Positions 1,719-62,193 of a stretch of DNA of 64,000 nt are shown in pieces; the stretch's first letter is position 1; every line of letters starts with the position of its first letter. The translations under genes and the position numbers were made by a program. The stretch lies in contig NZ_CP016756.1 in the NCBI RefSeq assembly GCF_001700965.1, positions 3,896,501-3,960,500 on the forward strand, written 5' to 3'. The notes under the pieces were generated by a model. That model searched no databases. It saw only the letters and a program-made list of their open reading frames with translations, and was not told the origin of the DNA. The DNA comes from Stenotrophomonas nitritireducens. Lineage in GTDB: Bacteria > Pseudomonadota > Gammaproteobacteria > Xanthomonadales > Xanthomonadaceae.

Positions 1719-1847
1719 GGTGTAACAACTGTCTGTAACAGCGCTGATACACCGGCGTGAAAGCCGCGTCCGGCTTGGGTCCTGGGAGTTTCAGCAGGCG
1801 GCCATACGTCGTATTTGAAATCCGACCGGCTGTGACAGGGATACACC
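1719..1847 (+). promoter_or_regulatory. Candidate enhancer sites upstream of the amyloid operon
   Basis: Two similar blocks lie upstream of the sigma-54 promoter. The first is CTGTAACAG (1733-1741) followed by GATACACC (1746-1753), sitting within a larger imperfect palindrome GGTGTA...TACACC (1719-1753). The second is CTGTGACAG (1830-1838) followed by GATACACC (1840-1847). CTGTRACAG is itself a near-perfect palindrome. Their distances from the promoter (about 60 and 155 bases) fit enhancer sites for a sigma-54 activator, the likely binder being the regulator at 7701-9032. This is inference from sequence pattern only. Confidence 0.5.
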
Positions 1848-1898: not shown

Positions 1899-1915
1899 TT
1901 GGCACGGTTGCTGCT
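1899..1915 (+). promoter_or_regulatory. Sigma-54 (-24/-12) promoter of the fap-like operon
   Basis: TTGGCACGGTTGCTGCT carries the invariant GG (1901-1902) and GC (1913-1914) separated by exactly 10 bases, with TGGCAC matching the -24 consensus perfectly and CTGCT close to the -12 TTGCW. Transcription would begin near 1926, some 23 bases before the ATG at 1949. A sigma-54-dependent activator gene lies at the other end of the operon. Confidence 0.75.
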
Positions 1916-1948
1916 CCTTCACTCGCGTTGTTACGAGTGGACGACGCA

Positions 1949-2482
1949 ATGGACAGCTGCAACCTACATCGTTATGCCGCCCTGATCGGCGTGTTGCTGA
2001 TCGGCGCCGCCGCCAGCCAGGGCGCCTTGGCCTCTGGCGCGCGTCAGGGCGTAAAGGCGCAGCCGGGCGAGATCGTATTGCTGCGCGACGTCTCTACCCG
2101 TCCGGCCTATCGTCCGGCACCGCCGGGCATGGCCTTGATTGCGGATCCGTCGCCGCGCAAGGAGCTGGGCACGGCGTTGGGTGCCGGCGGCATGAGTGAA
2201 CTCAGCGACGACGACTACGCGTCGATGGGCTCGGGTATGGCAGACGGCCTGGCAAGCGGTCACGGCCAGACCACGGTGGAGCGGGTGACCAGCGGTGTGG
2301 TCGGCGGCACCCTGGGACGGGTTGTGGGTGACGGCGGCATGCTGTCCGGCAACCAGATGTCACGCGCCATCGGCGGCCCGATGGGCGCCGTGGGCGGGGC
2401 CACACGCGGTATCGGTGATCAGGTGCGTGGCGCATTGGCGCAGTTCCCGCTGGGCCAGCCAGCCGGGCCGGGTGGCAAGTGA
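1949..2482 (+). CDS. Gly-rich secreted protein, first gene of the fap-like operon
   Basis: This 177-residue protein starts with a signal-peptide-like segment (YAALIGVLLIGAAASQGALAS). It continues with a Pro/Arg-rich stretch and a Gly-rich C-terminal half with glycine-zipper-like spacing (SGVVGGTLGRVVGDGG, then AIGGPMGAVGGATRGIG). I do not recognise the family. It holds the position of fapA in Pseudomonas but does not obviously resemble it. The start at 1949 was chosen because the promoter's predicted transcription start is about 1926; a longer frame beginning at 1856 would lie upstream of it. The stop overlaps the next start in GTGA, so translation is probably coupled. A role in secretion or assembly of the amyloid subunits is inferred from position only. 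Confidence 0.75.
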   Translation: MDSCNLHRYAALIGVLLIGAAASQGALASGARQGVKAQPGEIVLLRDVSTRPAYRPAPPGMALIADPSPRKELGTALGAGGMSELSDDDYASMGSGMADGLASGHGQTTVERVTSGVVGGTLGRVVGDGGMLSGNQMSRAIGGPMGAVGGATRGIGDQVRGALAQFPLGQPAGPGGK

Positions 2483-3114
2483 ACACCGCCTTCCTCCGTC
2501 TGTCGGGCGCAGTGCTGGCACTGCTGCTGGTCGGCGCGGCGCAGGCGCAATCGCGCCCCGACAGTTACATCGGCATGTTGTCTTACCTGTCTGCGGACAG
2601 CCGCATCGACGGCAATGCGCTGGCTGGCGCCGATGGCTCGATCAAGGTCAACCAGGCCGCCGGTGAGCTCAATCTGCAGGCCAACCTGCACAGCATGGCC
2701 AATGGCAACCAGGCAGCGTCAAGCGTACGCAGCCTGCAGCAGCGGCAAGCCAATCTCTACAACACACCGATGCAGGCTTCGGCCGTGGTCGGTGGCAATG
2801 CGCTGGCCGGGGCCAGCGGCATCGCTTCAATCAATCAGGCCAGTGGCGGCGGCAATGCGGAGCTGAACTCCGTCAACGCGACGCTGGCTGCACAGGGCAT
2901 ACGCGAGGCAAGTGATGAAGCAATGACTTCATCCGAAGTGCTCGCGTCGGCGGGGGGGCAGTCCATCGTCACCGACCCGCGTGCTACCCGACGGGTAGGC
3001 GTGGAGGAATCCGCGTTGCGCGGATTTGACGGCGTACTGCAACTCAATCAGATCGCGGGATCAGGCAATGCAACGGAGAACAGATTCAGCATCTCCGTGC
3101 AGGGCACCCCGTGA
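2479..3114 (+). CDS. Minor amyloid subunit-like protein (FapB-like)
   Basis: This 211-residue exported protein has a signal peptide ending near AQAQS. Three imperfect repeats share the pattern G-N-A-L-x-G-x-x-G-x-x-x-x-N-Q-x-(A/S)-G-x-x-N-x-x-x-N: one near residues 46-68 (GNALAGADG...NQAAGELN), one near 105-128 (GNALAGASG...NQASGGGN), and a degraded one near 187-205 (LRGFDG...NQIAGSGN). Regularly spaced Asn/Gln/Gly in such repeats is typical of bacterial functional amyloids (curlin, FapB, FapC). Its place directly before the larger repeat protein matches FapB, the proposed nucleator in Pseudomonas. The GTG start at 2479 overlaps the previous stop by four bases. Assignment as FapB is by position and composition; direct homology was not tested. 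Confidence 0.75.
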   Translation: MNTAFLRLSGAVLALLLVGAAQAQSRPDSYIGMLSYLSADSRIDGNALAGADGSIKVNQAAGELNLQANLHSMANGNQAASSVRSLQQRQANLYNTPMQASAVVGGNALAGASGIASINQASGGGNAELNSVNATLAAQGIREASDEAMTSSEVLASAGGQSIVTDPRATRRVGVEESALRGFDGVLQLNQIAGSGNATENRFSISVQGTP

Positions 3115-3161
3115 GCACAGCTCCATCCACCCGATGCATCAGAAAACCTGAAGAGGGCACC

Positions 3162-4652
3162 ATGAAAGCGATCAAATGGAATGTACTCGCCATGGCGGTT
3201 ACCGCATTCACCATGAGTGCGGCGGCCAGTGCGGCGGACGATCAGAACGCGAGCGCGACCATCAATCACCTGCACAATGTGGTTGAGACGCGCACGAACA
3301 CCAACACAAATACGAACACCAATACCAACGTAAATACCGATGTAAACACCGCGATCGATACCGACATCGATCTGAAGTTGGATGCCGCTGCCAGACTGCG
3401 CTACAACGATACGCGCAACAACACTGACACCCGCACCAATACCGAAACCACCAGCAATACCGACACCCGCAGCAACACCGAGACGACCAACACCTGGTCC
3501 AACGATGTCACCGAGAACGTACAGAAGACCTCGAACATCTCCGCCGACGAACGCAAGGAAAAGAACAACCACGGCGTTGATGTGAACATCGAGAAGGACA
3601 TCCGTCTGAGCTCGGACGTGAACTTCTCCGGCGACCCGACCATCACCGGCAACATCGATCTGGATTCGGCCGCGATTGCCATCATTGACAACCGCCAGTC
3701 GATCTCCGGCAACCATGCCCGCAACGGGTTGCTGGAAAACACCGCTTCGATCGGCGATGACGTTGCCTCCGATGCCTCGGGCAACCTGGGCTTCAACGTG
3801 GCTGCCGGTGACAACAACGCACAGGACAATGCCGCTGCGCTGTCCGCTGCCGATGCGTCCTTCAGCTTTGGCATGGCTGACGCCGAAGTGTTCGTGAACC
3901 AGGCTGGCACCAACAACATGACCTGGAACCATGGCGTGACCAACGATGCTGGCATCAGCGGCAACGCGTTCTCCGGTGCAGCCGGCAACATCGGCGTCAA
4001 CGTGACCTCGGGTAACAACAACGAGCAGAAGAACGCTCTAGCTGCCTCGGTTGCCACCAGCGCCTATGCCACCTCGACCATCAGCTCGAACCAGACCTCG
4101 AGCGGCAACCGCGTCGAGAACAACGGCTACTACGACCGCATGGTCAGCACCGTCAACGTGAACCTGAGCGGCAAGGTGACGGGTACCACCAGCGGCTCGG
4201 GCACCGGCGAGTACACCGGCACCGGCAATTCCTATCAGAAGTCCAATTTCTACGTGGACAACTGGTCGGGCGATACGCATCCGGCGGGCGACCAGACCGG
4301 TCACTCGGATTGGGACAACCAGACCCAGGGTGCCGTGGCCAACCCGAACAGGCCGGGTGTGGGTGGCATGGCATGGGATACCGATGAGAAGGGCACCAGC
4401 AAGTTCAGCGAGATGGGAACTGCTGATCTGACGGCCAGCCTGAGTGGCCAGGTGAGCACCGTCAACTGGGTGGCGGTCAATGCGACCAATACCGCCAGTC
4501 TGTCGGGCTCGGCGTTCTCCAATGCCTCCGGCAACATCGGTGTGAACGTGTCCTCCGGTACCGGCAACCTGCAGGCCAACAGCCTTGCGCTGGCGGTTGC
4601 GCAGCCCTCGACCGGCGGTGGCACTCCGCCGGGCAACCCGGGTGGTGAATAA
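3162..4652 (+). CDS. fapC: Major functional amyloid subunit-like protein (FapC-like)
   Basis: This 496-residue protein has a clear signal peptide (cleavage near ASAAD) and is probably secreted and polymerised outside the cell. A low-complexity Asn/Thr/Asp tract near residues 43-68 (NTNTNTN type) is followed by a second one near 85-115 (NTDTRTNTET type). The C-terminal two thirds carry amyloid repeats with the core A-x-G-N-(I/L)-G-(V/F)-N-V-x-(A/S)-G-x-x-N-x-Q-x-N: SGNLGFNVAAGDNNAQDN, then AGNIGVNVTSGNNNEQKN, and near the C terminus SGNIGVNVSSGTGNLQAN. A Gly/Ser/Thr-rich linker of about 100 residues separates repeats two and three. This matches the FapC layout of three repeats with variable linkers. 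The ATG at 3162 has AAGAGG upstream. Three hairpins follow the gene, which may raise its message level over the downstream genes. Confidence 0.82.
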   Translation: MKAIKWNVLAMAVTAFTMSAAASAADDQNASATINHLHNVVETRTNTNTNTNTNTNVNTDVNTAIDTDIDLKLDAAARLRYNDTRNNTDTRTNTETTSNTDTRSNTETTNTWSNDVTENVQKTSNISADERKEKNNHGVDVNIEKDIRLSSDVNFSGDPTITGNIDLDSAAIAIIDNRQSISGNHARNGLLENTASIGDDVASDASGNLGFNVAAGDNNAQDNAAALSAADASFSFGMADAEVFVNQAGTNNMTWNHGVTNDAGISGNAFSGAAGNIGVNVTSGNNNEQKNALAASVATSAYATSTISSNQTSSGNRVENNGYYDRMVSTVNVNLSGKVTGTTSGSGTGEYTGTGNSYQKSNFYVDNWSGDTHPAGDQTGHSDWDNQTQGAVANPNRPGVGGMAWDTDEKGTSKFSEMGTADLTASLSGQVSTVNWVAVNATNTASLSGSAFSNASGNIGVNVSSGTGNLQANSLALAVAQPSTGGGTPPGNPGGE

Positions 4653-4658
4653 CCGGAA

Positions 4659-4765
4659 GCGTCATCCAATCGGATGACGCACCGGCTTCGCGCAACAAGC
4701 CCGGCCATCCGCCAATGGCCGGGTTCCGGGAGCCCCCATTCCTTTCCCCCGGGAGGGGGGCTCCC
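4659..4765 (+). other. Three consecutive hairpins between fapC-like and fapD-like genes
   Basis: Three strong inverted repeats are packed into 107 bases: GCGTCATCC/GGATGACGC (4659-4680), CCCGGCCAT/ATGGCCGGG (4700-4723) and GGGAGCCCCC/GGGGGCTCCC (4728-4765). None is followed by a clear T tract, so they look more like message-stabilising or processing structures, or partial attenuators, than a full terminator. The effect would be to favour the amyloid subunit over the downstream export genes; this is inference. Confidence 0.6.
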
Positions 4766-4795
4766 ACCTTCCTATACGCTGGAGGCGCCGTGTTT

Positions 4796-5494
4796 ATGTT
4801 CCGTTGCTTGCTGCTGACCTGTGCGTTGTCGGTGTCCCCTGGCCTGCTGCATGCGGGCGAGGTGGCATTCAACGGCGTGCTGCCCAATGGGGCCCTGTAC
4901 AGCGGCAAGATCGAGAGCATGAAAGAACGGCGTTTCCGCAACCTGGTGCGGCAGCAGACCGATTACAGCTGCGGCGCCGCGGCCTTGGCCACGATCCTCA
5001 AGCATGCCTACCACTTGAATACCGATGAGGCGACGGTGATCGAGGGAATGATGGGGGTGGCCGATCCGGAGTTGGTGAAACAACGCGGATTCTCATTGCT
5101 GGACATCAAGCGTTACGTGGAATCGCTGGGCATGCGCGGGCGCGGCTACCGGATTGATGAAGACCGCTTGGCGAACCTTCGGGTCCCCGGCCTGGTGTTG
5201 ATGGATGTGCGTGGGTTCCGCCACTTCGTCGTGCTCAAGCAGGTGCGTGATGGCGTGGCCGAGATTGCCGACCCCATCCTCGGCAACCGCGTGGTGCCGA
5301 TGGCCGAGTTCCTGCAGTCCTGGCCCTCGCGCGCGGTGTTCGTGGTGATAGGCAGCGATTTCGACCGCAATACCGTGCTGCTGCAACCTGCTGAAAGACC
5401 GAGTGCGCGCGCGCTGTATGCACGTCAAGGGCGCGGCCCCATTACCGATGCGGAGCTGGTCGATTTCGGTTTTACCCATGCCGACCTGTTCTGA
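4796..5494 (+). CDS. fapD: C39-family cysteine peptidase (FapD-like)
   Basis: This 232-residue exported protein has a signal peptide (FRCLLLTCALSVSPGLLHAG) and a papain-like C39 domain over most of the rest. The catalytic set is visible: an oxyanion Gln and active Cys in QQTDYSCGAAAL, the His in GFRHFVVL, and the Asp in EIADPILGN. In the Fap system FapD is a periplasmic C39 protease thought to cleave or guide subunits for secretion. GGAGG at 4781 precedes two candidate in-frame starts, GTG at 4790 and ATG at 4796; ATG was preferred. The longer frame starting at 4715 would run through the hairpin region and lacks signal character. It lies between the major subunit and the third amyloid-like gene, as in fapC-D-E. 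Confidence 0.82.
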   Translation: MFRCLLLTCALSVSPGLLHAGEVAFNGVLPNGALYSGKIESMKERRFRNLVRQQTDYSCGAAALATILKHAYHLNTDEATVIEGMMGVADPELVKQRGFSLLDIKRYVESLGMRGRGYRIDEDRLANLRVPGLVLMDVRGFRHFVVLKQVRDGVAEIADPILGNRVVPMAEFLQSWPSRAVFVVIGSDFDRNTVLLQPAERPSARALYARQGRGPITDAELVDFGFTHADLF

Positions 5495-5506
5495 AGGAGT
5501 GTTGTG

Positions 5507-6271
5507 ATGAACATGATCAAGTTCGCCCTGCTGGCTTTGGCGCTGAGTGCCGCGCTGCCAGTGCACGGTGCGGAAAATCCAAGCAAGCCTGGCAAGGGCC
5601 TGCATGAAATACCCGATCCGGAATTGAACCTTATGCGCGGCCGTTACACCGTAGGGGGTAACGCAGTGGCATGGTTCGGAGTAACCATGGTGTCGACCTG
5701 GCAGACCGGCACCGGCCAGAACCTGCAGGGCACCATGACCCTGGGCATGGATTTCACCAAGGGCAACACGCCCAAGGTCAGCTTCACCCCCAGCGTCAAC
5801 ATCACCGCCGCCAATGCGCCGCTACCGGATGTGACAGGGCGCAGTATTGATGGCAGCGGCTTGAACAATGTGAGTGGTGTCAGCCAGAGCGTGCAGGTCG
5901 CCGGCGACAGCAACCGCGCCAGCAACGTGATGCATTTGAACGTACGCAACGACGGCGTGGTGCCGACCGGCACCGGTACGGTTGCCGGCGATGCCAGCGC
6001 GCAGTCCGGCAATGCCAGTGCGGTGGCCAGCTTCGACGGCAATGCCGCGCGGCTGCAGTTGAACATCGAAGGTCAGGGCGCGGTGCAGCAATGGCTGCGC
6101 AGCGGCAGCGTTGGCCAGAGCATCCAGCTGACCAGCGATGGGCAGGTGGTGAACAACCGGTTGCAGATTGATCTGGTGCGGCAGTCGCTGGGGGGCAATC
6201 TGCCGCTTGCACAGAACGTGGCACAGGCCATCACGCTCAATCGGGGGATTGGCGGGGTCGGCGGGCAGTGA
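5507..6271 (+). CDS. Amyloid-related secreted protein (FapE-like)
   Basis: This 254-residue exported protein has a signal peptide ending near VHGAE, followed by a conserved-looking segment (HEIPDPELNLMRGRYTVGG) and a long Asn/Gly/Ser/Gln-rich region predicted to be mainly beta strand. Short stretches recall the subunit repeats (for example SQSVQVAGDSNRASN). In Pseudomonas the gene in this position, fapE, encodes a minor fibre-associated component. The ATG at 5507 has AAGGAG seven bases upstream. A GTG directly before it at 5504 would add one residue. A small hairpin with an ATTTT tail separates it from the next gene, so partial termination is possible there. Function is inferred from position and composition. 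Confidence 0.72.
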   Translation: MNMIKFALLALALSAALPVHGAENPSKPGKGLHEIPDPELNLMRGRYTVGGNAVAWFGVTMVSTWQTGTGQNLQGTMTLGMDFTKGNTPKVSFTPSVNITAANAPLPDVTGRSIDGSGLNNVSGVSQSVQVAGDSNRASNVMHLNVRNDGVVPTGTGTVAGDASAQSGNASAVASFDGNAARLQLNIEGQGAVQQWLRSGSVGQSIQLTSDGQVVNNRLQIDLVRQSLGGNLPLAQNVAQAITLNRGIGGVGGQ

Positions 6272-6273
6272 GC

Positions 6274-6295
6274 CCCGTGCCTGGCACGGGATTTT
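6274..6295 (+). terminator. Small hairpin, possible attenuator before fapF-like gene
   Basis: CCCGTG (6274-6279) pairs with CACGGG (6285-6290) and is followed by ATTTT. The stem is short, so it is more likely partial termination or a spacer structure than full termination. Confidence 0.45.
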
Positions 6296-6322
6296 GCAGG
6301 TACAACGTAGAGGACGGCAGCA

Positions 6323-7654
6323 ATGAAACGACTGGCGATGGCGGCGCTGGTGAGTCTGACTGTGGCTTCACCCAAGGTGTTGGCACAGGAGGCGACAACC
6401 GGCAGTAGCGATGAGGCGGATGTACGGGCATTGGTTTCGCAGCTGGAGGCGTTGAAGGCCAGCTATGCACAGGAGGTGCGGCGTTTGCGCGAACTGGACA
6501 TGCAGGTGCAGGCGATCCAGGCGCGGGTAAGCGGCAAGACTGCGCAGATGCCTGCCGCGCAGCCGCCCACGGCAATGGCTGCAGGACCTCAAGCGCCCGC
6601 AGTACCGGCCGCAGCTACGGCTGCCGCCGCGACGCCGCCGGCCGAAGGTTATGCCAGCAGCGCGACCGAGGCGCAGCAGGCCAAGGAAGCGGCGCGACGT
6701 AGTGTGGATGACGTCAAGCAACAGCAGTCGGCCTTGTTCAACCAGCGCCTGACGCTGGAAAACAGCGTCACCTACGCACGCTACGACCGCAAACAACTCA
6801 CCCTCAATGGTTTCCTGGCGCTGGATGCGATCTTCCTGGGCAACATCGCCATCGAGAACGTCGAGTCCGATTCGCTCACCTACAACTTTGCCGCGCGCTG
6901 GGGCCTCAATCCGCGTTTGACCTTGAACCTGGACGTGCCTTACATCGCCCGCAAGACCATCTATCAGAAAGGCGGTGCTGGCGGCTCGGCGGCGGCGATC
7001 GCGCAGGAGGAGACCCATGGCACCGGCATCGGCGATGTGACCGTCAGCGCCAACTACAAGCTGTTCGGCGAACGCGGCTGGCGCCCGGAAACAGTGCTGA
7101 CCGGTGCGGTGACCGCACCGACCGGGCGTGAACCCTATGGCCTGGACTGGAAGGTGATCGAACGCGATGACGATGACTTCATCCGCTTCGCGGTGCCGGC
7201 CAAGCAGCCCACCGGCAATGGTTTGTGGCAGGCCAATATCGGTCTGTCGGCGGTCAAGAGCGCCGATCCCGCGATCCTGTTCGGCAACATCGGCTACGTG
7301 CGTTCGTTCAAGCGCAGCTTCAACGACATCGATGCCAACCCTGACACGGTCAATCCGGGCGAAGTGGTGCTGGGCGATTCGTATTACTTCGGCGCCGGCA
7401 TTGCGTTTGCTTTCAACGAACGCACCAGCCTGAGCATTTCCTTCAGTGACCGCATGAGCGCACGTGCTTCCACCCGCTACAAGAACGGCAAATGGATGAA
7501 GGTCATCGGCAGCGATGGCAACGCCGGCACGCTCAATCTGGGTGTGACCTATGCACTGACCTCCAAGGCCACCTTCGTCAGCATGCTGGGAATCGGGCTG
7601 ACACCGGATGCGCCGGATTTCAGCCTGGCGTTCAAGGTGCCTTACATGCTCTGA
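6323..7654 (+). CDS. fapF: Outer-membrane barrel with N-terminal coiled coil (FapF-like)
   Basis: This 443-residue protein has a signal peptide (cleaved near LAQEA), then a heptad-rich helix (about residues 30-75, ALVSQLEALKASYAQEVRRL), an Ala/Pro-rich linker, and from about residue 140 a C-terminal region of alternating aromatic/polar strands typical of an outer-membrane barrel (ENSVTYARYDRKQLTLNGFL onward). FapF of Pseudomonas is a trimeric porin whose N-terminal coiled coil gates secretion of the amyloid subunits, and this layout matches it well. It does not end in the usual aromatic residue but in YML. AGAGGA precedes the ATG. It is the last gene of the operon; the regulator gene converges on it 46 bases downstream. 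Confidence 0.8.
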   Translation: MKRLAMAALVSLTVASPKVLAQEATTGSSDEADVRALVSQLEALKASYAQEVRRLRELDMQVQAIQARVSGKTAQMPAAQPPTAMAAGPQAPAVPAAATAAAATPPAEGYASSATEAQQAKEAARRSVDDVKQQQSALFNQRLTLENSVTYARYDRKQLTLNGFLALDAIFLGNIAIENVESDSLTYNFAARWGLNPRLTLNLDVPYIARKTIYQKGGAGGSAAAIAQEETHGTGIGDVTVSANYKLFGERGWRPETVLTGAVTAPTGREPYGLDWKVIERDDDDFIRFAVPAKQPTGNGLWQANIGLSAVKSADPAILFGNIGYVRSFKRSFNDIDANPDTVNPGEVVLGDSYYFGAGIAFAFNERTSLSISFSDRMSARASTRYKNGKWMKVIGSDGNAGTLNLGVTYALTSKATFVSMLGIGLTPDAPDFSLAFKVPYML

Positions 7655-7700
7655 GCGTGCCGGCCAAGGCGGAACAACGCCGAAGCGCTGCGTCGAGCAA

Positions 7701-9032
7701 TCAACGCAGCGCCTCCAGTTCCAGCTGGTGTTTGCGGCACATGCGGTAGATGGTGACCCGCGACACCTTCATCAGGCGCGCGCAGGCGCTGATGTTGTAC
7801 TGGCTTTGCTGCAGGCAGGACAGCAGGGTTTCGCGTTCGGCATGACTGCGTGCCTTGCTCAACTGCGCGCCATCGCTGGGCAGGTTGAGTTCCAGATCGG
7901 TGCTGCTGATCAACTCGCCTTCGGCGGTGATGGCGGCGCGCTGCACCCGGTTGAGCAGTTCGCGCACATTGCCCGGCCACGGAAAGCGTTCCATCGCCTG
8001 GCGCGCCTCGAGCGTGTAACCGCGTGCGCGGGTGGGGTGGCGCATGCGGAAGTTGCGCAGGAATTGCCGCGAAAGCAGTTCGATATCGCCATCACGCTTG
8101 CGCAGCGGTGGCATTGCCAGGCGCAGGACGTTCAACCGGTAATAAAGGTCGCGGCGGAACCGGCCTTCTTCCACCGCCCGCTCCAGGTCGACGTGGGTGG
8201 CGGCAAGGATGCGCACGTCCACCGCAACCGGCTGGTTGCTGCCGACCCGCTCGATGGTGCCTTCCTGCAGCACCCGCAGCAGGCTGGTCTGCGCGTCCAG
8301 CGGCAGGTCGCCAATCTCATCAAGGAACACGCTGCCGGTGTGTGCGGTTTCAAACAGGCCCAGCCGGCGGCTGGTGGCGCCGGTGAACGCGCCGCGCTCA
8401 TGGCCGAACAGTTCGGACTGGATCAGGGTCGAAGGAATGGCGCCGCAGTTGATGGCCTGGAAAGGTTTGCCGCTGCGCGCCGACAGCCGGTGCAGGGCAT
8501 GCGCCGCGACCTCCTTGCCGGTACCGGTTTCGCCGGTGATCAGGACCGGTAGATCGACCGGTGCGTACTTGCGCAGTGTTGCCCGCATCACCAGCATCAC
8601 CTCGCTCTCGCCGAGCAGGGTGTCCAGTACGTCTTCGCTGGCCGCGCGTGGTACCTCGTTGCTGAGCCCGTGCAGGCCGCGCAGCAGTTCCTTCAGGTCC
8701 AGCGGGTGGGCAAAGTGTTGGCTGCAGGCGGCCAGCAACGGATGCCGTGACGTCGTTTCGCTGCTGCTGGCGGCCGGGGTGATCGCAAACAACGGCATGT
8801 GCTGGTGCGCGGCGGTCAGCTCGCCGATGCGCTCCAGTTCGCTGTCCGAGCTGGTGCGGAAATCGATCAGGCCAACCACCATGTCGCCGCCGCGCATGCC
8901 GATGTCGGCCGGTTGTTGGGGCAGCACCGTACGTACCTGCCAGCCGTCCGCGGCCAGCATCACCTTCTCTCTTGCCCCGGGATTTCCAAACCAGATCACA
9001 CAATGCGTACTTGACATTTGTGCCGCCGCCAT
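7701..9032 (-). CDS. Sigma-54-dependent enhancer-binding transcriptional regulator
   Basis: This 443-residue regulator has three parts. An N-terminal receiver-like domain of about 120 residues lacks an obvious phospho-acceptor cluster and recalls the VpsR type. The central AAA+ domain has Walker A GETGTGKE (about 165-172), the sigma-54-contacting GAFTGA loop (about 212-217) and Walker B VFLDEIGDLP. A C-terminal Fis-type helix-turn-helix follows (about 414-437, SACARLMKVSRVTIYRMCRK). It would bind upstream sites and drive open-complex formation at -24/-12 promoters. It converges on the fap-like operon, whose promoter is of this class, so it is the likely activator. The ATG at 9032 has AGAAGG upstream; a TTG-initiated frame to 9089 is less likely. 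Confidence 0.92.
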   Translation of the reverse strand: MAAAQMSSTHCVIWFGNPGAREKVMLAADGWQVRTVLPQQPADIGMRGGDMVVGLIDFRTSSDSELERIGELTAAHQHMPLFAITPAASSSETTSRHPLLAACSQHFAHPLDLKELLRGLHGLSNEVPRAASEDVLDTLLGESEVMLVMRATLRKYAPVDLPVLITGETGTGKEVAAHALHRLSARSGKPFQAINCGAIPSTLIQSELFGHERGAFTGATSRRLGLFETAHTGSVFLDEIGDLPLDAQTSLLRVLQEGTIERVGSNQPVAVDVRILAATHVDLERAVEEGRFRRDLYYRLNVLRLAMPPLRKRDGDIELLSRQFLRNFRMRHPTRARGYTLEARQAMERFPWPGNVRELLNRVQRAAITAEGELISSTDLELNLPSDGAQLSKARSHAERETLLSCLQQSQYNISACARLMKVSRVTIYRMCRKHQLELEALR

Positions 9033-9193
9033 GGCTGGTTGCCTTCTGATCCGCGGCCAACGATATACCTGTGATTCACGCGTGCGCAATCGTATTCGGC
9101 ACTTTAATTGGGCGCGGTCACCGGGGTTCGCATTAATGTTTGTGCAGGAAAAGTTACGCCCGGGCTTGGCTGTGGCAGTAAGCGGCGGGCAAT

Positions 9194-9247: not shown

Positions 9248-9991
9248 TTACAGCGCCATGCGACGGGCCTGCATGAACTTGTCACCCCAATAGCCGGTCA
9301 TCAGGGAGTCGGTGCGGACATCCTTGCCGGTGCTGGGTGCGTGCAGGAAGCGGCCTTCGCCGACATAGATGCCGACGTGGTCGACGCGGCCCTTGCGGCC
9401 GAAGAACACCAGATCGCCGGCGGCCAGCGCCGAGCGGTCGTTGATCAGTTCGGCATTGGCCTGGCTGGCCATTTCGCGCGAAACGCGCGGCAGCTCGACG
9501 CCCAGGGCAGTACGGAACACGTAACCAACCAGGCCGCTGCAGTCAAAGCCGGCATCCGGCGAGGTGCCGCCCCAGCGGTACGGGGTGCCCAGCAGGGTCA
9601 TGGCGCGGCGCAGGATGGACTGCACCTTGCCGTCGGAATCGTTGGCCAATGCCGCTTCGGTGGCGGCCGAGATGCCCTTGGAGGCGTCGTAGGCGGAAAT
9701 CAGCCGGCTCAGGTCGCCAGCAAACATCGCCGAACGGTCCATCAGCGGAATGGTGTCGCTGGCTGCAAGGTGCGGCAGCAATGCAGCGAGTGTGGCGGTG
9801 GCAGCGCTGTCGGCCTTGCTGCGGGGAGCTTCAGTCTTGGCCGCAGCGGGCTTGGCAGCTGCGGTGGTGTCGGCGCTCTGAGCGAAGGCGGGCAGGCTGG
9901 CCAGAGCCAGTGCCGCGGCGCAGATCAGGCGGCGGAGGGTGAGCGGGGAAATCTTCGGCTGGCTCGGATGGGACGTGTTGTCAGTCGTCAC
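9248..9991 (-). CDS. Secreted NlpC/P60-family peptidoglycan endopeptidase
   Basis: This 247-residue protein has an N-terminal hydrophobic signal segment (LICAAALALASLPAFAQ), an Ala/Lys-rich linker, and a C-terminal NlpC/P60 domain from about residue 120. The catalytic Cys sits in GFDCSGLVGYVF (about 148) and the His in VDHVGIYVGEG (about 203). Such enzymes cleave stem peptides of peptidoglycan, usually the D-Glu-diaminopimelate bond. Arg/Trp in YRWGGTSPD before the Cys is also family typical. The GTG at 9991 was chosen; there is no suitable ATG, and a TTG at 10054 would place 21 non-signal residues in front. The paralogue immediately upstream is a lipoprotein, so the pair may act at different envelope sites. 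Confidence 0.87.
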   Translation of the reverse strand: MTTDNTSHPSQPKISPLTLRRLICAAALALASLPAFAQSADTTAAAKPAAAKTEAPRSKADSAATATLAALLPHLAASDTIPLMDRSAMFAGDLSRLISAYDASKGISAATEAALANDSDGKVQSILRRAMTLLGTPYRWGGTSPDAGFDCSGLVGYVFRTALGVELPRVSREMASQANAELINDRSALAAGDLVFFGRKGRVDHVGIYVGEGRFLHAPSTGKDVRTDSLMTGYWGDKFMQARRMAL

Positions 9992-10097
9992 GCGGCAGTC
10001 ACTAGAAAAAGTCGATGGGGGATGATGCCCTGCGAAACGTGTTGATAAGTACAATTTTCGTTAAGAAATTGTTATTTTTCGTGACCAATGGCTCGTT

Positions 10098-10631
10098 TTA
10101 GCGCAGTACGCGCTTCGCTCCGGTGTAATGATCGCGCCAATAGGCGGCATCCAGATGGTCCAGACGGACCGTGCCGCCGGTGCTGGGTGCATGCACAAAG
10201 CGGCCTTCGCCGACGTAGATGCCAACGTGCCAGACGTTGCCTTTGTCGCCGAAGAACACCAGGTCACCGGCGGTCAGGCGGTCCGGGGCGATCTTCGGGC
10301 CCTGGATTGCGGCCAGCTCGCGCGAGGTGCGGGGCAGGTTCAGCGCCAGCATGTCGCGGTAGACGTAAGTCACCAACCCGCTGCAGTCGAATCCCGATTC
10401 CGGCGTATTGCCCCCATAGCGGTAAGGCGTGCCGACCAGCCCCAGCGCCCGCATCAACACCGACGCTGCCGCAGCGGGGTCGGCCGGTGCCACCGGCGAG
10501 TAATTACGGGCCGGCGCGGGTGCGGCCGCCCGCTTGGGCGGGGTGTGGCCGCAGGCGGCAAGCAGGGCGGCGGACAGCAGCGTGACCGGCAGGCGCCACG
10601 AGCGGAAGCGGAAAACTGGCGTGATGTGCAT
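10098..10631 (-). CDS. NlpC/P60-family lipoprotein
   Basis: This 177-residue protein has a signal peptide ending in the lipobox LLAAC (Cys27), so it is probably anchored to a membrane. A short Pro/Ala-rich linker leads to an NlpC/P60 domain with catalytic Cys83 in GFDCSGLVTYVY and the His in WHVGIYVGEG. The core of the domain is closely similar to that of the next gene downstream (shared IYVGEGRF-(V/L)-HAPSTG), which indicates a tandem duplication. The ATG at 10631 was preferred over a GTG at 10652. An AT-rich stretch (10055-10085) separates the two genes and could carry a promoter for the downstream copy. Spr/MepS-like lipoproteins of similar size are space-maker endopeptidases. Confidence 0.87.
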   Translation of the reverse strand: MHITPVFRFRSWRLPVTLLSAALLAACGHTPPKRAAAPAPARNYSPVAPADPAAAASVLMRALGLVGTPYRYGGNTPESGFDCSGLVTYVYRDMLALNLPRTSRELAAIQGPKIAPDRLTAGDLVFFGDKGNVWHVGIYVGEGRFVHAPSTGGTVRLDHLDAAYWRDHYTGAKRVLR

Positions 10632-10741
10632 GGAGCCCGGATAATGCGCCACCTAAGAAGGCCGTCATCATGGCGGCGTCCCCGGCGGCCGACAAGCCGT
10701 CCCAACGTCTGCCAGCGGGCAGCCATTTATCAGAGTTGCGC

Positions 10742-18891: not shown

Positions 18892-19006
18892 GTAGGAGCG
18901 GCGTAAGCCGCGAAGCCACTTCAAATGAAGCGGTCGGCGCCGTTGGGATTGCGTTGATTTCCGGCGCTTTGGGTCTGGTCAGCTTCGCGGCGTACGCCGC
19001 TCCTAC
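18892..19006. repeat. REP-like paired palindrome (GTAGGAGCGGC family)
   Basis: The arms GTAGGAGCGGCGTAAGCCGC and GCGGCGTACGCCGCTCCTAC enclose about 75 variable bases. It lies between the two M13 genes. Confidence 0.85.
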
Positions 19007-41693: not shown

Positions 41694-41903
41694 GTAGGAG
41701 CGGCGTAAGCCGCGAGGCAGATGGATCATCAGATCTCAGCGCAGTCGCTAGCGGAAGAAACGCCAGCTTCGCGACTGACGTCGCTCCCACAAAAATCGGG
41801 TTGCCTCTAGGAGCGGCGTGAGCCGCGAAGCAGGTGAATCATCAGATTGCAGAAGCACGGGATGCTGGTGCTATCAGGGCTTCGCGGCTTACGCCGCTCC
41901 TAC
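41694..41903. repeat. Two tandem REP-like paired palindromes
   Basis: Two copies of the GTAGGAGCGGC family lie side by side: 41694-41790 (right arm altered to GACGTCGCTCCCAC) and 41807-41903 (left arm starting CTAGGAGCGGCGTG). A further arm fragment GACGCCGCTCC is at 41911. They share an internal stretch resembling GATCATCAGAT. They fill the gap to psd. Confidence 0.85.
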
Positions 41904-62043: not shown

Positions 62044-62193
62044 GTAGGGGCGGCGTGAGCCGCGAAGCTGCAGATGCAGCAGGGTCCAGCGCTGTAGCTC
62101 CCTCCCTTTGCCGAAGGCAAGGGGAGGGTTGGGGAGGGGTAGGTTCTTGGGCCTTTCAAGCTTTATGAGCTTCGCGGCTTACGCCGCTCCTAC
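62044..62193. repeat. REP-like paired palindrome with an internal G/C-tract insert
   Basis: The left arm GTAGGGGCGGCGTGAGCCGC and right arm GCGGCTTACGCCGCTCCTAC flank a CTCCCTCCCTTTGCC...GGGGAGGGTTGGGGAG insert (62099-62143). It is the largest of the GTAGGAGCGGC family here, a composite of two repeat families. Confidence 0.85.

Follow-up and report, generated by a model that had tools for sequence, protein, structure and literature searches.

The locus treated here, a fap operon with a convergent regulator gene in a 64,000-nucleotide stretch of Stenotrophomonas nitritireducens DNA (the window; G000:C1:3896501-3960500, within a one-contig 4.54-Mb genome), has the fapABCDEF amyloid operons of Pseudomonas among its closest described relatives. 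In P. fluorescens PF07, fap is RpoN-dependent, its -24/-12 promoter was located by 5' rapid amplification of cDNA ends (5'-RACE), and an adjacent gene in the reverse direction, brfA, is present (PMC9207406). BrfA is an enhancer-binding protein reported to sense cyclic di-guanosine monophosphate (c-di-GMP) in P. fluorescens (PMC13101488). Both RpoN and BrfA are required for normal fap expression in PF07 (PMC9207406, PMC13101488), and deletion of brfA lowers that expression (PMC9207406); these two papers, like PMC10333796 and PMC3684753 below, are cited for the sections of each that were available. Fap has also been published for Stenotrophomonas (PMC3792158). A term search of the main text of that paper found neither sigma nor RpoN, and our literature search found no study of fap regulation in Stenotrophomonas.

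We conclude that the window very probably contains a complete Stenotrophomonas Fap operon with one sigma-54 promoter, switched on by the convergent BrfA-type enhancer-binding protein. A sequence-only reading of the window had presented this arrangement as undescribed. Since the operon in the genus and the RpoN promoter with adjacent brfA in P. fluorescens are both published (PMC3792158; PMC9207406, in the sections cited), neither the operon nor its regulatory arrangement is new.

Identity and order of the fap genes

Six open reading frames (ORFs), all on the plus strand, stand in the canonical order fapA to fapF and are followed by the convergent regulator gene:

1949..2482, plus strand: fapA (chaperone type), 177 amino acids; NCBIfam NF058617, E 8.4e-8, below its cut-off
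2479..3114, plus strand: fapB (minor subunit), 211 amino acids, GTG start, 4-base overlap with fapA; NCBIfam NF058557, E 5.4e-22
3162..4652, plus strand: fapC (major amyloid subunit), 496 amino acids; NCBIfam NF058558, E 1.6e-52
4796..5494 (alternative GTG start 4790), plus strand: fapD (C39 peptidase), 232 amino acids; NCBIfam NF058616, E 2.3e-75; PF03412, E 7.4e-19
5507..6271 (alternative start 5504), plus strand: fapE (third secreted, fibre-associated protein), 254 amino acids; NCBIfam NF058559, E 9.6e-31
6323..7654, plus strand: fapF (N-terminal extension and outer-membrane barrel, subunit exporter), 443 amino acids; NCBIfam NF058560, E 2.8e-110
7701..9032, minus strand: brfA-type sigma-54 enhancer-binding regulator (VpsR-like N domain, AAA+ domain, Fis-type helix-turn-helix), 443 amino acids; PF00158, E 7.4e-69

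The six co-directional genes and the convergent activator had been read from the sequence alone with slightly different starts. NCBIfam gives each of the six proteins the corresponding Fap model as top match (E from 8e-8 to 3e-110), which bears out the earlier assignment of fapB to fapF, FapC and FapF included. Residues 125-442 of FapF, the barrel part, align with the solved FapF structure PDB 5o65 (9e-78). In Pfam the window proteins show the C39 domain, the domains of a sigma-54 activator and a weak match to a barrel family. Three imperfect Fap repeats are present in FapC, whose N-terminal part contains a long stretch rich in Thr and Asn; in FapB one repeat was found by pattern search, and two more only by reading the translation. 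The Thr/Asn-rich tract of FapC (TNTNTN..., encoded at 3290-3510) is highly variable across the genus. The closest named relatives of FapD and of the regulator N domain are Stenotrophomonas proteins, including those of S. terrae and S. humi.

The first gene had been considered unlike FapA, and this view did not hold. In addition to the FapA model match, a profile-profile comparison (hhalign) of nine genus sequences (alignment A3) with eight Pseudomonas FapA sequences (alignment A2) gave a probability of 94.8% and E 5e-8 over 78 columns. A novel protein was thereby ruled out. The divergence of the window FapA is normal, because FapA outside the Pseudomonadales has a mean identity to that of PAO1 of only 17% (Dueholm 2013, PMC3792158).

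FapD also matches the NCBIfam model FilB (1.6e-33) and FapF the model FilC (4.8e-22), as might be seen if the locus were not Fap but a related export system, such as a FilB/FilC-like putative pilus or some other fibre linked to C39. However, both proteins score much better with their Fap models, the FapA, FapB, FapC and FapE models fit the remaining genes in order, and FapC-type repeats are present. A FilB/FilC-like pilus system was ruled out on these scores, and we regard the probability of any such related system as close to negligible.

Regulator, promoter and candidate enhancer box

The regulator gene converges on fapF, with 46 bases between the two, and has an alternative TTG start at 9089. 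Its product contains the GAFTGA motif; the HTH_8 match (2e-4) and the weak match of the N domain to Pfam VpsR (PF20161, 1.3e-4) both lie slightly under their cut-offs. VpsR does match 15 of 17 aligned fap-linked regulators (alignment A4) at E <=0.01. Among solved structures, nothing credible was found for the window N domain, the best hit having E 0.56. A search of this genome with the fap-linked regulator of P. viridiflava (L085) gave the window gene as top match (330.5 versus 263.3 bits), and the window regulator in turn has the fap-linked gene as its top match in P. protegens FD6 (320.8 versus 249.4 bits). A tree of the AAA+ domain, built from 31 chosen rows with few outgroups, placed all 26 fap-linked regulators used in one clade (97/98), apart from the five other activators of this genome. 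Compared with 12 fap-linked Pseudomonas regulators, the window protein is identical at 138-143 of 246 positions in the AAA+ domain and at 16-18 of 44 in the helix-turn-helix. By these reciprocal best matches, the single clade and the shared position, the window regulator is, at the level of sequence, the counterpart of Pseudomonas BrfA. It should be noted that BrfA of PF07 was equated with the fap-linked Pseudomonas regulators by its published position, and that the comparisons use the sequences of those relatives.

The linkage of regulator and operon was followed in the window, 33 other genus loci and seven others, comprising G056, G072 and five more distant loci (L176-L180) drawn from the 31 genomes that match the FapF model and lie outside the family. 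FapF was present in 34 of 37 examined genus genomes (that of the window included) and in 35 of 61 genomes overall. The fapA to fapF order with a relative of the regulator nearby was found in all 34 genus loci, and also in G056 and G072. The regulator is convergent downstream in 23 of the 34. Among the distant loci, it lies upstream in the same direction at L176 and L177 (1.1-1.2 kb from fapB), upstream at 431 bases at L179, and downstream in the same direction at L180; at L178 neither the regulator nor fapA to fapC was found at the fetched locus. Pseudomonas was represented by the best 80 of at least 585 relatives, and in 77 of these 80 named loci a regulator, mostly of about 441 amino acids, converges on fapF (start minus end 44-671). 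Two of the three loci without it (L072, L073) end at a contig end, and the third, L126, differs. At L126:11100-12322 (Pseudomonas sp. ok272), ORFs that look transposase-like by eye occupy the expected place of the regulator downstream of fapF. Profile, synteny and tree thus all agree with the adjacent sigma-54 activator proposed from the sequence alone.

Two elements were identified upstream of fapA:

1900..1915, plus strand: sigma-54 (-24/-12) promoter of the fap operon, TGGCACGGTTGCTGCT; 11 of 12 consensus positions
1734..1751, strand not assigned: predicted enhancer (upstream activator) box TGTAACAGCGCTGATACA, dyad TGTNNCA-N4-TGNNACA; starts 166 bases before the -24 element

The promoter match by itself is barely above chance, since the best of 30 shuffles of the same region reached 10 of 12 consensus positions. 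When the pattern TGGCA[CT]G-N6-GC[TG] was applied to the genus, exactly one element was found in the syntenic position in 34 of 34 loci. A sigma-54 promoter driving the fap operon, as had been proposed at the start of the unit, is thus supported by the GG at -24, the GC at -12, their correct spacing and this conservation. For Pseudomonas, fapB was present in 79 of the 80 loci and the promoter region lay on the contig in 78 of them, of which 76 had a CGGCAC-type -24 element (the exceptions are L088 and L113); L097 was excluded from the promoter and box counts, its element being spurious at a distance of about 8 kb. The genome carries two rpoN genes (G000:C1:3553481-3554872 and 4446184-4447527). 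The second of these (4446184-4447527) lies near a sigma-54 activator gene (L183).

In the 4.54-Mb genome the dyad and a reversed control pattern each have one exact copy, that of the dyad being at 1734-1751. Exact copies were found no more than 300 bases before the -24 element in 30 of 34 genus loci, and copies with at most one mismatch in 33 (none in L143), the corresponding Pseudomonas counts being 71 and 76 of 76. Shuffled sequences gave no exact copy in 680 (genus) or 1540 (Pseudomonas) trials, and 8 and 12, respectively, with at most one mismatch. The distant L175 also has an exact copy. In the genus, 16 exact copies begin 152-154 bases and 14 begin 162-166 bases ahead of the -24 element. 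The starts in Pseudomonas are at 80-82 (68), 128 (3), 138-139 (13), 150-151 (15), 162-163 (4) or 234-236 (7), and the steps of about 11 bases between box positions look like helix turns. The specified positions of the dyad carry 1.8-1.9 bits, compared with 0.2-0.7 for the flanks, although the former figure is inflated because rows were selected by match to the pattern. From its placement we infer that the regulator binds this dyad, which we regard as a candidate enhancer. The box recurs as TGTAACAGGAATGCAACA in several genus genomes; the copy in L202 sits where a lipoprotein-like ORF begins. The idea that the regulator has a second target was rejected, as the box is genome-wide no commoner than the reversed control; by these counts the sequence gives no sign of regulator targets beyond fap.

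Repeats of the form GTAGGAGCGGC...AGCCGC, mostly in inverted pairs, have nine matches in the window against 0.07 expected (1564-1659, 18892-19006, 41694-41903, 62044-62193), and one of the pairs is found a short way upstream of the predicted box. We take them to resemble the GTAG-type repetitive extragenic palindromic (REP) elements of Stenotrophomonas. Further along the window, two genes stand side by side on the minus strand (9248-10652); by the motif DCSGLV they resemble NlpC/P60 peptidases.

RNA hairpins between fapC and fapD

The gap between fapC and fapD contains two further elements:

4700..4723, plus strand: conserved RNA hairpin CCCGGCCAU-CCGCCA-AUGGCCGGG in the fapC-fapD gap (4653-4795); covarying stem, invariant loop
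4728..4765, plus strand: second conserved RNA hairpin in the same gap, from alignment, folding and covariation

For 4645-4790, the gap plus a few bases flanking it, the folding energy is -83.9 kcal/mol (z -6.9), which none of 200 shuffles reached. Values of z below -2 were obtained for 36 of 36 Xanthomonad fapC-fapD gaps and, of 20 Pseudomonas loci tried, for 14 of the 17 that were scored. The borders of the gaps used for z-scores, regular-expression search, alignment and T-run counts rest on an approximate fapD start. The alignment covers 21 of the 34 genus gaps, mostly from forward-strand loci chosen for ease of reference. Both hairpins are kept in all 21 aligned gaps, with 98.4% of cells pairing, and the CCGCCA loop is invariant. 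Five of 24 pairs change on both sides, a number attained by 5 of 500 shuffles; 14 cells change on both sides and the covariation value is 0.180 versus 0.137, neither of which was equalled in 500 shuffles. The number of pair types is not above that of shuffles, 205 of 500 of which have at least as many, and after a shift of the partners by +1 four pairs still change on both sides. Because related sequences can exceed such shuffles, the covariation is support and not proof.

The middle hairpin occurs as a single copy in the genome, and a regular expression recovers it in 32 of 34 genus gaps, missing L172 and L173. No Rfam family was found anywhere in the window at the gathering score. TTTT is present in 8 of the 34 genus gaps, and a terminator-like hairpin with a T run in 58 of 69 examined Pseudomonas gaps. 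The post-fapC hairpins of the genus and of Pseudomonas may terminate transcription partially or stabilise 3' ends, in either case to the advantage of the subunit genes, and the double hairpin at 4700-4765 is a candidate attenuator or mRNA stabiliser.

Control of the operon and comparison with known systems

Several observations weigh against a Fap operon switched on by a BrfA-type regulator. None of the six Fap proteins reaches its curated NCBIfam equivalog cut-off; for FapF, 35 of 369 sampled genomes of the class match the model and none of the 369 passes the cut-off, so we take it to be narrow and not a defining Fap feature. The promoter element in its genus pattern is absent at L174 (G056), L175 (G072) and L179. 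The dyad pattern was defined after inspecting these same upstream sequences, and since genome-wide it is no more frequent than the reversed control, the evidence is the placement of the box and not its number. The regulator is divergent upstream of fapA in 11 of the 34 genus loci (L156, L158-L160, L162, L163, L166-L170). Its N domain is only about 12% identical (12-16 of 122-124 positions) to those of the 12 fap-linked Pseudomonas regulators. Finally, the LFRS and RN motifs of FleQ, listed as its c-di-GMP motifs in a table of PMC10333796, face VLDT and HA in an alignment with the window regulator.

Could the operon be Fap and the adjoining activator control something else, its position being accidental? 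We consider this very improbable. The regulator stays linked to fap in all 34 genus loci, in 77 of 80 Pseudomonas loci and, L178 excepted, in the other loci compared (G056, G072, L176, L177, L179, L180), the fap-linked regulators form one clade, there is no excess of boxes elsewhere in the genome, and the brfA deletion in P. fluorescens (PMC9207406, as cited) lowers fap expression. On the other side stand the orientation of the regulator, convergent on the operon and not divergent from it, the shifts of its location within the genus and the strong divergence of its N domain from Pseudomonas.

The low N-domain identity does mean that the signal of the regulator may differ from that in Pseudomonas. 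That it acts on fap through a signal other than c-di-GMP would also fit the finding that the regulator lacks FleQ-like residues where FleQ has LFRS and RN, but the matches of fap-linked regulators to VpsR and the reported c-di-GMP sensing of BrfA (PMC13101488, as cited) speak against such a signal. The missing LFRS arginine decides nothing, because, judged by eye, it seems to be missing from the Pseudomonas fap-linked regulators as well, yet BrfA is reported to sense c-di-GMP. We hold another signal to be a serious alternative, if a somewhat doubtful one. A term search of PMC11404848, on c-di-GMP in S. maltophilia, found neither fap nor amyloid.

Control by a BrfA-type regulator may be pictured as follows, from the gene identities and their order, the promoter, the relationship of the regulator and the conserved box and hairpins. 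The regulator would be activated by a biofilm signal, reported for Pseudomonas to be c-di-GMP, and would bind the dyad box starting 152-166 bases before the -24 element in the genus. The DNA would loop, and the AAA+ domain would remodel sigma-54 RNA polymerase at 1900-1915, so that fapABCDEF would be transcribed. FapA would serve as a periplasmic chaperone for the subunits, FapD would process one or more partners, FapF would export FapB, FapC and FapE, and FapB would nucleate FapC fibres outside the cell. Both these protein roles, of which some are proposals even in Pseudomonas, and the dependence on RpoN and BrfA are carried over from that genus. The post-fapC hairpins would probably raise subunit mRNA relative to that of the machinery genes.

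Tentatively, we propose that two cis elements present in none of the literature found control the operon: the dyad box, kept from Pseudomonas to Stenotrophomonas despite the divergence of the sensor domain (in effect a one-operon regulon), and the covarying double hairpin with its invariant CCGCCA loop and no Rfam family, which would set the ratio of subunits to export machinery. We rate this proposal as possible, a little short of probable. Box and RNA element are testable control sequences for an amyloid that needs the right ratio to its exporter, and are the parts of the locus that merit experiment. The RpoN/BrfA/fap wiring of P. fluorescens is indicated as common to Stenotrophomonas; the Fap switch also matters in practice, because Fap is regarded as part of the biofilm matrix. 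The known range of bacterial amyloid systems is unchanged by this locus.

When the window is compared with Pseudomonas fapABCDEF, the same six genes are found in the same order and orientation and with the same protein families, down to the match of FapF to PDB 5o65. FapC differs in its Thr/Asn-rich N-terminal stretch and in its C terminus: a FapC-query match was obtained in 69 of the 80 Pseudomonas loci, 63 of which have a C-terminal CXXC, whereas it is found in none of the 34 genus loci. The CXXC was rejected as a family marker, since its absence is also known from FapC of P. putida and P. entomophila (PMC3684753, as cited). The post-fapC hairpins of the genus mostly lack a T run, while those of Pseudomonas are terminator-like. 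VpsR and FleQ, c-di-GMP-responsive enhancer-binding proteins, have the same domain order as the window regulator, whose N domain is weakly VpsR-like and does not keep the LFRS and RN residues of FleQ. BrfA relatives in other Pseudomonas share with the window the AAA+ domain, the Fis-type helix-turn-helix and the upstream dyad box, and differ most strongly in the N domain. BrfA of PF07 itself is likewise encoded by an adjacent reverse gene downstream of fapF, with an ORF of 1326 bp compared with 1332 here, and fapA likewise has a -24/-12 promoter (PMC9207406, as cited). Of the fap operons described for Stenotrophomonas and Rhodanobacter by Dueholm 2013 (PMC3792158), the former belong to the same genus and represent the same operon.

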